This document shows positions 618-4,105 of a stretch of 64,000 bases of DNA, piece after piece. Source of the DNA: Acidiferrobacterales bacterium (GTDB taxonomy: Bacteria; Pseudomonadota; Gammaproteobacteria; Arenicellales; JAJDZL01); NCBI GenBank assembly GCA_028820695.1, contig JAPPIB010000025.1, positions 1 through 64,000 on the forward strand. Reading direction: 5' to 3'. A program made the position numbers and the translations under genes. Numbering within the stretch: position 1 is the stretch's first letter; every line of letters starts with the position of its first letter. Below the pieces are notes generated by a model. It did not search any database, had not been told where the DNA came from, and was given only the letters and a program-made list of their open reading frames with translations.

Positions 618-899
618 ATGACGAATTTCGTTGATTGTGTCGTTCTAAAAGAAAAGTCCGAGGCGATGACCACTCCACCCTACCCTGGAGAACTGGGCGT
701 ACGGATTGTGGAAAACGTTTCGAAAGAGGGTTGGAAACAATGGTTGGAGCGACTGGTAACGATAATTAATGAGAATCAGTTGGCTACCAGCGACCCGGAC
801 ACACACAAATTGATTGAACAGCATATGCTGGGCTTTCTATTTGGTGAAGGTGATTTGGGAAATCTGCCTCCTGGGTTTACGACTCAACGGAAGAAGTGA
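618..899 (+). CDS. yggX: YggX, probable Fe(2+)-trafficking / oxidative damage protection protein
   Basis: This 93-residue protein matches the YggX family in length (about 90 residues) and signature. The conserved PPYPGELG block lies at residues 21-28, followed by an ISKE-W-like block (VSKEGWKQWL), an INEN helix and the C-terminal LFGEGDLGNLPPGF-type ending. A cysteine near residue 7 (VDCV) corresponds to the conserved N-terminal cysteine of the family. YggX is a small cytosolic protein linked to iron handling and protection of Fe-S clusters from oxidation; the biochemical role is known only from other bacteria. It stands alone here rather than beside mutY. Its last 23 bases overlap the 3' end of the convergent recO gene. 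The ATG at 618 has only a weak ribosome binding site. Confidence 0.9.
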   Translation: MTNFVDCVVLKEKSEAMTTPPYPGELGVRIVENVSKEGWKQWLERLVTIINENQLATSDPDTHKLIEQHMLGFLFGEGDLGNLPPGFTTQRKK

Positions 900-1620
900 T
901 GCGATCTCGGCTTAGGCGGTGTTGAATCGTCTGGTTGAAGATTCTGCGCGAATGAATCGGTTTGCCTTCAAGATAGTGATCGATGACCGCTGCGAGCAAT
1001 TGTTTGCTTTCTGACCGGACCTTTTTGGTCTTGAATTCTTCTCGCGCCACTGACAATAGCGTTTCACCTGACACCACAACAGCCTCGTCGCCGTTCGCCT
1101 GTACAGGCCCTCTTGCGAAGTCATAGGTATAGACATTGGACGGGTCGATCGGTAAATTGGAGTCCGACTCGGATGTCAGTTGAAGGGCATATCCCAATTC
1201 CTGCAGGAACACTTTCTCGAATACTCGCAATGTGTGAAATTCACTGGACGGCTCTTTCAATCGTTCCAAAGCGAGATAGTAAGCGTCAAACAGAACCTCG
1301 TGAGGGTCCCTGTCGAGCAGCAAACGGATCAGCAACTCATTTAGATAGTATCGACAGTAAAGCCGCTCACTTTCGATCCACTGGCTATCGGAATCACATT
1401 TCAATGCGGTGAGAGTCGGTACATTGCCCTTTCCGGACCAATTCGCAGACAAGCGTTGAAATGGCCTGATCAGTCCCCTGAACCGCGAAGTTTTACGTCT
1501 CGCTCCCTTTGCAAGCAGGTTGATACGACCATAACTGCGGGTAAACATGTCCACGATCAGGCTGGATTCGGAGTACGGCGTGGTCCGCAACACGAAACAA
1601 TCTTGTCGGTAGACACGCAT
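877..1620 (-). CDS. recO: DNA repair protein RecO
   Basis: The product (247 residues with the ATG at 1620) is RecO, which together with RecR loads RecA onto SSB-coated single-stranded DNA in recombinational repair. The N-terminal OB-fold region is clear (RVYRQDCFVLRTTPYSESS, then DMFTRSYGRINLLAKGARR), followed by the helical C-terminal domain. The open frame extends upstream to 1701, but the family starts with the strand at RVYRQDCFVL, so the ATG at 1620 is preferred. It begins 5 bases after the era stop codon and is the last gene of a lepB-rnc-era-recO operon. The four-cysteine zinc site found in some RecO proteins is absent, as in enterobacterial RecO. Confidence 0.92.
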   Translation of the reverse strand: MRVYRQDCFVLRTTPYSESSLIVDMFTRSYGRINLLAKGARRKTSRFRGLIRPFQRLSANWSGKGNVPTLTALKCDSDSQWIESERLYCRYYLNELLIRLLLDRDPHEVLFDAYYLALERLKEPSSEFHTLRVFEKVFLQELGYALQLTSESDSNLPIDPSNVYTYDFARGPVQANGDEAVVVSGETLLSVAREEFKTKKVRSESKQLLAAVIDHYLEGKPIHSRRIFNQTIQHRLSRDRITSSVES

Positions 1621-1625
1621 CGGAC

Positions 1626-2549
1626 TCAATCCGCCTCGGAATAACCGAAGTTTGAAATCGACTGCAAGTCGTCGGTCCAGCGAGCCCGGACCTTTACCCA
1701 CAGATTCAGATGTACTTTGACACCTTGTTCAGCTTCGACTCTGCTTCGAACCTCGGTTCCAATTCTCTTTATCTTTGAGCCGCCTGCTCCGATTATGATT
1801 CGCTTCTGTCCTTTGGACTCCACCCATATTGTCGCTTCAATGTGCAGGAAGTTGTTTTCTCGATCATACTTTTCGATCTGTACTGCACTGGTATAGGGAA
1901 TTTCGTCACCGTAGTAGCGGAAAATCTGTTCGCGAATCACCTCCGCCGCTTGAAAAATCTCACCTTTATCGGTAACCGTGCCCGACGGGAAGAGCGAGGG
2001 ACCAGGCGGTAGATACTTCAGGATCACACTCTTCAACTCCTCGATATTCTCATCTTTGTGAGCCGAGACCGGCACAATATCGGTAATCTGTGTTCGTCCG
2101 GCGATATCGTGAATCATCGGGAGCAGAAGATTTTTATCTTTTACCCGGTCGATCATGGACAACACGACTATGAATGGCAGATTCTCATCCTGAATTCGTT
2201 CCAGGATCATATTGTCCTGCTCCCGCCAACCGCGACAGTCCACGACAAGAAGCACTAGGTCTGTACCGCTGACTCCAGCCGCGGCAGTCTTGAATACGGA
2301 ACGGTCAATCAGACGTTTGTAGTTCGTGTTGAAGCCAGGCAGATCAATGAAGACGTACTGTCCGTGTGGGTCATTCAACACACCCATAATCCGATGACGG
2401 GTGGTATTGGCTTTCTTTGATGTGATGCTGACTTTCTGCTTGAGAAGACAGTTGAGCAAGGTAGATTTGCCAACGTTCGGGCGTCCGGCCAGAGCAATCA
2501 TGCCGGAACGAAAATTATCGTCAGACGTTGTGCTGGCGGAGTAAGTCAT
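1626..2549 (-). CDS. era: GTPase Era with a divergent G4 motif
   Basis: Era (307 residues from the ATG at 2549) is a GTPase that binds the 3' end of 16S rRNA and helps mature the 30S subunit. The P-loop GRPNVGKS ends at about residue 29, G2 is in the TTRHR segment, G3 is DLPG (usually DTPG), G5 is SAHKDEN, and a C-terminal KH domain with IIIGAGGSKIKRIGTE closes the protein. Unusually, the G4 motif that reads NKxD in GTPases is SMID here (residues 131-134), so both Asn and Lys are replaced. The open frame runs further upstream inside rnc; the ATG at 2549 gives a normal Era length and overlaps the rnc end by 29 bases. An alternative ATG lies at 2501. Confidence 0.93.
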   Translation of the reverse strand: MTYSASTTSDDNFRSGMIALAGRPNVGKSTLLNCLLKQKVSITSKKANTTRHRIMGVLNDPHGQYVFIDLPGFNTNYKRLIDRSVFKTAAAGVSGTDLVLLVVDCRGWREQDNMILERIQDENLPFIVVLSMIDRVKDKNLLLPMIHDIAGRTQITDIVPVSAHKDENIEELKSVILKYLPPGPSLFPSGTVTDKGEIFQAAEVIREQIFRYYGDEIPYTSAVQIEKYDRENNFLHIEATIWVESKGQKRIIIGAGGSKIKRIGTEVRSRVEAEQGVKVHLNLWVKVRARWTDDLQSISNFGYSEAD

Positions 2550-3207
2550 AGGCTTGCGCAGCAGCGTCCTGCTCGGCTCGCTTCTTTGTGTTTCCTTGAC
2601 CGGTAGCGGTGTCGACAAGACCGTCGACATGGCAGTTAACGGTAAAACTGGGATTATTGTAGTCACCGCTTACATCTACGGTAATGTAAGTTGGAACTGG
2701 GAGCGAGCGCTGTTGCAAATACTCCTGCAACCGGCTCTTGGAGTCTTTGTAGTCGGTAATCGAGCTTTTCTCAATCAATGACCGAAACTTGTCAAGGATG
2801 AACTTTTGGGCGTTGTACATTCCGCCATCAAGATATATCGCGCCAATCAGCGCTTCAAGCGTATTCGGCAGAAGGTTTCGCCAAGCTTTGTGATTTTGTT
2901 TCGGGAATGACTTCCCGACTTTGACGTGGGTCTCCAGTGACATTCCGAGAGCCACACTATAGATGGCATCATGGTTGTTGACAATCCGGCTTCGCAGTTT
3001 GGTCAGTTCACCTGCGGTGGCGTCTGGATATTGGCCAAACAGATAGTCTGAAATGACCGCGGAAAGGACTGCATCGCCTAGAAATTCCAGGTTTTCGTTG
3101 TCCGGCTGTTCAGTGCTGCTGTGCGTAAGCGCTCGATGCAATAGTTGCGTGTTTTCAAATCGGTATCCAAGTACCAGTGAAATTTCATTTTGGTCAGAAA
3201 TGTTCAC
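2521..3207 (-). CDS. rnc: Ribonuclease III with an altered active-site block
   Basis: RNase III (228 residues) cleaves double-stranded RNA, notably the 30S rRNA precursor. The signature NLEFLGDAVL carries E38, E41 and D45, and the C-terminal double-stranded RNA binding domain (DSKSRLQEYLQQ to the KKRAEQDAAAQAYDLL end) is canonical. The second acidic block, normally ILADTxEALIGAIYLD, reads LLPNTLEALIGAIYLD, so the Asp that is D114 in E. coli is Asn115 here, while the Glu equivalent to E117 (E118) is kept. The stretch just before it (VGKSFPKQNHKAWR) also departs from the usual Gly/Glu/Arg-rich sequence. The start is GTG at 3207 with a weak ribosome binding site. It sits between lepB and era, the usual gammaproteobacterial order. 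Confidence 0.93.
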   Translation of the reverse strand: MNISDQNEISLVLGYRFENTQLLHRALTHSSTEQPDNENLEFLGDAVLSAVISDYLFGQYPDATAGELTKLRSRIVNNHDAIYSVALGMSLETHVKVGKSFPKQNHKAWRNLLPNTLEALIGAIYLDGGMYNAQKFILDKFRSLIEKSSITDYKDSKSRLQEYLQQRSLPVPTYITVDVSGDYNNPSFTVNCHVDGLVDTATGQGNTKKRAEQDAAAQAYDLLRQHNV

Positions 3208-3307: not shown

Positions 3308-4105
3308 TCACTCGATCGCAGCTGCAATGCGGCTCCAATTTACGCCATTCCCTCCAACTGAATCCCAGCTGAACCATATAAAGAAAGCCTTGCCAATCAG
3401 GTTTTCATCCGGAACGAACCCCCAGAATCGACTGTCATTACTATAGTCCCGATTGTCACCCATCACGAAATAGTGCCCTTCGGGAACCTTAAACTCCATA
3501 TTCGAAGTCCATCTCTTCTCGTCAATCAGAATGGAATGAGATTCACTCGAATCGAATGACTCATTCAATCGTGTGGTTTCATTCCTTCTGCTTGCATTTG
3601 ACACGACGACATAGGTTCCGGTAACTTCCTGCGCAACCTCATTTCCGTTGATATACAGCTTCTTTTCGTTATAGGCTACGGTATCGCCCGGCAATCCTAC
3701 GACGCGTTTGATGAAATTGACGGCCCGGTCATGCGGATACTTGAATACCATCACGTCGCCATATTCCGGAGATCCGAATTCTAGAATCTTGTCATCGATA
3801 ATGGGCAGGCGAAGCCCATATTTGTACTTGTTGACTAAAATGAAGTCTCCGATCTGCAAGGTGGGAAGCATCGACCCTGATGGAATTCGGAACGGCTCAA
3901 CCACAAACGAACGAAGTGCGAAGACGATCAGCAGCACAGGAAAGAACGCCCGGGCATATTCGATCACCCAGTAGCCTGCCGCCTTTTTGCCCTCTTCAGA
4001 TTGCATGAAAAAGAGATTTCTAATGACTTTTCGCCAAACCAGGTCGAGCAGCCAAATTAGCCCGGTTACGGAGACCGCGATTGCTAGGACGAGTGCAAAA
4101 TCCAT
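3308..4105 (-). CDS. lepB: Signal peptidase I
   Basis: LepB (265 residues) removes signal peptides from exported proteins at the periplasmic face of the inner membrane. Two N-terminal membrane segments are visible, about residues 3-22 and 52-68. The catalytic serine lies in SGSMLPTL (Ser78) and the general-base lysine in IKRVVGLPGD (Lys133), with the later GDNRDYSNDSRFWG block also conserved. It is somewhat shorter than E. coli LepB (324 residues). It heads the lepB-rnc-era-recO operon; lepA, often upstream, is not here, and nadB is divergent instead. Confidence 0.96.
   Translation of the reverse strand: MDFALVLAIAVSVTGLIWLLDLVWRKVIRNLFFMQSEEGKKAAGYWVIEYARAFFPVLLIVFALRSFVVEPFRIPSGSMLPTLQIGDFILVNKYKYGLRLPIIDDKILEFGSPEYGDVMVFKYPHDRAVNFIKRVVGLPGDTVAYNEKKLYINGNEVAQEVTGTYVVVSNASRRNETTRLNESFDSSESHSILIDEKRWTSNMEFKVPEGHYFVMGDNRDYSNDSRFWGFVPDENLIGKAFFIWFSWDSVGGNGVNWSRIAAAIE

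Follow-up and report, generated by a model that had tools for sequence, protein, structure and literature searches.

A probably functional GTPase Era whose G4 motif reads SMID instead of NKxD

Introduction

Era is a GTPase of ribosome assembly that is usually well conserved and often essential. Its hallmarks include binding of GTP and GDP, GTPase activity stimulated by 16S rRNA, and binding to the 30S subunit. It is reported to bind GTP and GDP with low-micromolar dissociation constants, which lie below the cellular concentrations of these nucleotides (PMC10582724). In a study of SpoIVA, an Era-derived ATPase, the Asp of the G4 motif (NKxD) is described as the main guanine determinant and the Lys side chain as a hydrophobic, lateral wall of the base pocket. 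Most GTPase families have N or T at the first G4 position, which by the same account does not distinguish purines on its own (PMC7952092). One survey of 298 guanine-binding complexes found that 43.3% of them lack NKXD. The same paper describes the Asn-N7 bond as the weakest in Ras, and its quantum-chemical study places cation-pi contacts first in energy (PMC11594714).

Consequences of changing G4 have been described for other GTPases. Mutations of Lys117 in Ras are reported to speed nucleotide release, and H-Ras K117N to be destabilised by about 25 kJ/mol; in a superfamily-wide comparison of nine sites, Lys117 and Asp119 were the most conserved (PMC8916776). KRAS K117N is described as raising GTP-bound levels in cells (PMC6813200). 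In MglA, Ala at the N, K or D of G4 reportedly abolishes both function and protein accumulation (PMC3000849). Natural departures from NKxD are also described. The guanine-nucleotide-binding protein CobW has SKxD, as given in a figure legend (PMC7895991), and the FeoB of Bacteroides fragilis is listed with NMYD at G4 and DLPG at G3 (PMC8980893). For Vibrio cholerae FeoB, no electrostatic contribution from Lys120 was seen in the reported work, and some other FeoBs are said to carry Met or Ala there (PMC11406355). Our searches of the open-access literature, with subscription journals mostly outside their reach, returned no report of natural G4 variation in Era. The search for NMxD in a GTPase context returned nothing, and that for SKxD returned CobW only.

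Results

The window analysed here is a stretch of 64,000 nucleotides from an Acidiferrobacterales genome, whose assembly comprises 2.77 Mb in 58 contigs with a completeness of 97.58%. Near its start, era stands between rnc and recO, in the gene order expected of a genuine Era:

877..1701 (open frame as listed), minus strand: recO, downstream neighbour of era (TIGR00613, 106 bits, cut-off 48.7)
1626..2528, minus strand: era, GTPase Era, 300 amino acids as analysed
2521..3207, minus strand: rnc, ribonuclease III, upstream operon neighbour of era (TIGR02191, 200.3 bits, cut-off 166.25)
3308..4105, minus strand: lepB, signal peptidase I, upstream of rnc (TIGR02227, 180.6 bits, cut-off 47)

The start of era is given as analysed; its open frame extends further upstream and overlaps the end of rnc. 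The true start of recO is probably nearer 1620, because its match to the family profile starts only at residue 32. In curated profile searches the era product scored 318.8 bits against NF000908 (cut-off 237) and 263.4 bits against TIGR00436 (cut-off 116.25). It carries the Pfam domains MMR_HSR1 and KH_2, both above the Pfam cut-offs, and aligns nearly end to end with Escherichia coli Era (PDB 1ega, residues 4-297 on 4-298). This whole-length match above a curated cut-off, with both a G domain and a KH domain, identifies the protein as a member of the Era family.

Searching the assembly recovered this single Era. A second canonical Era was looked for in the genome and rejected: the five other matches all had E values of 1.2e-8 or weaker, and by length and motifs were read as Der (two matches), MnmE, IF-2 and EngB. 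A search of contigs with Era alone gave one distant relative (L037), Der-type-like and 32% identical over the best segment. In the first 6 kb of the window no Rfam family matched at gathering thresholds. A 93-residue open frame at 618-899 (plus strand) encodes what we take to resemble the iron-trafficking and oxidative-damage protein YggX.

The G motifs of this Era are as follows:

2460..2486, minus strand: G1 (P-loop) GRPNVGKST, residues 15-23, canonical (position derived from the residue numbering)
2397..2405, minus strand: G2 TTR, residues 42-44, canonical
2334..2345, minus strand: G3 DLPG, residues 62-65, in place of DTPG
2148..2159, minus strand: G4 S124-M125-I126-D127, replacing NKxD (codons TCC ATG ATC GAC, 2159-2148)
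2058..2066, minus strand: G5 SAH, residues 155-157, SA canonical, third residue His rather than Glu

SMID aligns without gaps to N124-K125-V126-D127 of 1ega, and the two proteins share their numbering there. The first-pass annotation had described SMID at G4 in an otherwise well-conserved Era that keeps Asp, the main specificity residue, and these observations hold: the motif and its codons read as listed, Asp127 is retained, 46 of 52 conserved columns are unchanged, and G1, TTR, G5 SA and the KH_2 domain are all kept. It spoke of translational GTPases; Era is a ribosome-assembly GTPase of the Era family, not a translation factor proper. It had also raised the case of SMID as a common and fully GTP-specific variant in Era; in the survey below SMID occurs once.

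We read G4 in Era loci from the order and class of this bacterium. A first set comprised 206 loci, of which 198 carry NKxD; the eight exceptions are the Era studied here, four other members of its genus, and L200 (NMMD), L203 (SKLD) and L217 (TKID). At E 1e-30, four of the 109 genomes from the order and eight of the 114 from the class gave no Era match and were dropped. The second set added 69 loci found with a 64-residue query, 65 of them with NKxD and the others with NQVD (L271 and L286), NMVD (L296) and SKLD (L304). The third set added 20 loci, namely four Era fragments that cover G4 (from G084, G068, G095 and G070) and 16 further loci; 19 have NKxD and one has NQVD (L323). One other fragment piece from G070 and the fragment from G200 do not include G4 and were left out. 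The 64-residue search matched 223 of 369 genomes, from which we read the best 30 (the present genome included) and 56 lower-ranked ones, hand-picked because they had not yet been sampled. Re-reading all 295 loci by pairwise alignment returned the same 13 exceptions.

After removal of 15 loci from genomes read twice (counted by handle, all NKxD), 280 remained. NKxD occurs in 267 of these and SMID once, in the present genome; these counts are not unbiased frequencies, since sequences resembling the query are over-represented in the second and third sets. Asn is missing from eight of the 280 and Lys from six, and only the Era described here has lost both. NKxD is therefore not strictly defining for Era, as twelve other Era loci also depart from it. 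L271 and L286 belong to one genus (g185), as do L203 and L304 (g101). If the genera changed independently, a count by genus gives five or more replacements of Lys and three or more of Asn. A further within-genus change of Lys to Met is visible in another genus, where L296 (genome G469) has NMVD and L270 (G110) has NKxD.

The other motifs vary as well. In the first set G1 is identical to GRPNVGKST in 105 of 206 loci, and G3 is DTPG in 185 and DLPG in four, three of which are among the six members of the genus. Residue 41 (2406-2408, minus strand), which immediately precedes the TTR of switch I, is Asn throughout the genus (six of six) and Gln in 196 of the 200 Era proteins outside it, a genus-wide signature. 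A single-sequence AlphaFold model of this Era had a mean pLDDT of 43.4 and a pTM of 0.38.

Within the genus (six genomes, one per species) G4 reads SMID in the present genome, SKID in G004, SKLD in G001, TKID in G003 and G005, and NKID in G002. Asn124 is Ser or Thr in five of the six, and Lys125 has become Met in the present genome only. The nearest relative is G004, with an Era 83% identical to ours. In the Era tree, our genome groups with G004, and G001 with G003 and G005, each at a bootstrap of 100; the placement of G002 is unresolved. From the G4 states and this grouping it follows that the loss of Asn predates the species studied here. The change in G4 is two separate events, with the loss of Asn common to most of the genus, a loss that may have had one origin or two. 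The first step, visible by comparison among the genomes, turned Asn124 into Ser or Thr in most of the genus, giving the S/TKxD form that is known and functional in other GTPases. The second, which is the state of one genome, turned Lys125 into Met, possibly through one base (AAG to ATG), giving a FeoB-like xMxD.

That said, the second step could be an artefact, in that a single assembly or sequencing error would leave the real motif as SKID, with ATG a miscalled AAG. The codons of the two residues are TCC ATG here and TCA AAG in G004, so that one A-to-T difference separates our Met from the Lys of the nearest relative; of the 200 Era proteins of the first set that lie outside the genus, 199 retain Lys, and an assembly in 58 contigs, compared with one genome per species, leaves room for a miscall. 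However, the reading frame of era and its neighbours are intact. Five more Era loci (L200, L296, L271, L286 and L323) also have Met or Gln at the Lys codon, and the state is therefore biologically reachable; the adjacent Ser is common to relatives, and so that half of SMID is not an error. We consider a miscall unlikely, although the chance of one is the main weakness of the finding.

A second concern is that this lineage no longer needs its Era, which would then be decaying, and relaxed constraint was one of three readings that the first-pass annotation offered. The genus does sit on a long stem in the Era tree (1.29 changes per column). Among 52 columns conserved in at least 90% of the 200 non-genus Era proteins, the present Era departs at six (P40A, Q41N, T63L, N124S, K125M and A260V), and 195 of the 200 depart at five or fewer. 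Columns 40, 41 and 260 have the same state in all six genus members. This lineage thus lies on the divergent side. However, its neighbours diverge too: the ratio of genus-to-order over order-to-order identity is 0.76 for rnc, 0.83 for era and 0.86 for recO, so the long stem reflects the lineage and not Era alone. An acceleration of the genus specific to Era was considered and rejected, as by this ratio rnc is more divergent and recO nearly as divergent.

Selection on the gene points the same way. By the Nei-Gojobori method, dN and dS between our genome and G004 are 0.098 and 1.179 for era (ratio about 0.08), 0.133 and 1.586 for recO (0.08), 0.085 and 1.253 for lepB (0.07) and 0.205 and 1.05 for rnc (0.20), ratios that are rough because dS is near saturation and that, for era, rest on this one pair, as dS is not computable against the other genus members. 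The era ratio is like those of recO and lepB and below that of rnc, and it indicates purifying selection on the gene. In addition, G1, TTR and G5 SA are kept, and era stays in its operon as the sole copy found. Decay of a dispensable Era is accordingly unsupported, and we regard it as highly improbable. In the same pair of genomes, RNase III has diverged at roughly twice the rate of Era, its neighbour in the operon (68% against 83% identity).

The annotation's second reading was altered specificity. In the form considered here, this Era would have become a promiscuous NTPase able to use ATP alongside GTP. Several published observations lend it some weight. The authors of the SpoIVA study speculate that the shift to ATP started when the G4 Lys was lost, and they describe only a slight preference for GTP in a form of SpoIVA with NSxD and SxA, in which Lys and the G5 Glu are absent and Asp is present (PMC7952092); some FeoBs are reported to be NTP-promiscuous (PMC11406355). 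Against this, an ATP-hydrolysing Era was made by changing Asp as well as Lys and introducing the G5 Glu (PMC7952092), and the present protein retains Asp127 and has His as its third G5 residue. The promiscuity of FeoB is ascribed for the most part to an effect of G5 residues on the G4 Asp, and the V. cholerae FeoB, itself promiscuous, carries Lys, not Met (PMC11406355). Altered specificity is possible; we do not favour it, given that Asp127 and the SA of G5 are retained and that G5 does not end in Glu, and outright use of ATP seems distinctly unlikely. A milder version would make this protein a natural Era that has taken the first step towards SpoIVA along the path proposed in PMC7952092. Asn and Lys would be lost and Asp kept, base selectivity would be lowered or nucleotide exchange would be fast and GEF-independent, and the protein would still run small-subunit assembly. 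We mention this as a speculative and improbable case.

Other GTPases of the same genome show similar G4 forms. By our reading, G4 is SKLD in an FtsY-like protein (L239), TKLD in an Ffh-like protein and TKAD in an EngB-like protein, the names resting on family search, length and motifs. TKLD is the G4 form of FtsY, and with SKLD in L239, Ser occurs at the first G4 position twice in this genome. A Der-like protein with two G domains (L039) has NKSE in the first and NKSD in the second; Glu in G4 of the first domain is known in other Der proteins. In the order, 16 FeoB or FeoB-like loci were fetched, and G4 is NM[IM]D in all 12 of those with a readable G1-G4 stretch (four lacked one).

Discussion

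We favour, with a probability of about 0.72, the reading that this is a genuine and functional Era whose G4 has drifted in two steps within tolerated space. Ser or Thr at the first G4 position and Met at the second are each found in other P-loop GTPases. Since each swap occurs singly in related proteins, this Era most likely still works as a GTPase, though one that holds its nucleotide less tightly. Ser and Met with the Asp kept combine two known states, the pair being new among the Era proteins read. The third reading of the first-pass annotation, that nucleotide binding is compensated, comes close to this one, with the difference that no dedicated compensating change was identified. Its interpretation as a whole was right about the motif and the Asp and missed that Asn is lost across most of the genus.

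A mechanism can be outlined. Asp127 should still hold the guanine base through its pair of hydrogen bonds, so that GTP and GDP would still be preferred; the replaced Asn124 is the 'lower wall' residue, which is itself not purine-discriminating. This Era is most likely guanine-preferring and, by analogy with Ras, would bind its nucleotides more weakly and exchange them faster. Because cellular GTP exceeds the micromolar Kd of Era, such a loss of affinity could be tolerated, and the ribosome-assembly switch could still work.

Some evidence stands against a functional protein. The double change has no precedent among the Era loci read (one of 280). The destabilisation of H-Ras K117N, the conservation of Lys117 and Asp119 and the Ala mutants of MglA also weigh against it, and the share of the cation-pi contacts owed to Lys would be lost.

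The genus offers a natural series (NKID, TKID, SKID or SKLD, SMID) in which the role of each G4 residue is measurable. It also illustrates that real Era proteins can escape recognition by the textbook NKxD signature. The SMID Era is a rare variant of a known motif and gives no pointer to a new kind of system.

Comparison with known systems

SpoIVA, like the present Era, has lost the G4 Lys. It is described as mostly losing Asp too and as having an SxE-type G5 (PMC7952092), whereas here Asp127 is present and G5 is SAH, which places the protein outside the SpoIVA-type ATPases. The S/TKxD GTPases (the SRP GTPases FtsY and Ffh, EngB, CobW) share Ser or Thr at the Asn position; they belong to different families and keep their Lys.

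The G domain of FeoB likewise has Met at the Lys position and a retained Asp. The FeoB of B. fragilis shares the DLPG of G3 as well, so that our Era resembles FeoB at two motif positions. However, FeoB keeps Asn at the first G4 position and is a membrane transporter with a transmembrane permease domain after the G domain, whereas our protein of 300 residues has a KH domain instead, and the genome has no match to TIGR00437 at E 1e-50. The likeness is one of single residues, not of membership.

The closest system is the GTPase Era itself (1ega), with which the present protein shares the domain plan, the rnc-era-recO order, G1, TTR, G5 SA, the KH domain and Asp127. It differs by Ser for Asn124, Met for Lys125, DLPG in G3 and Asn for Gln41.
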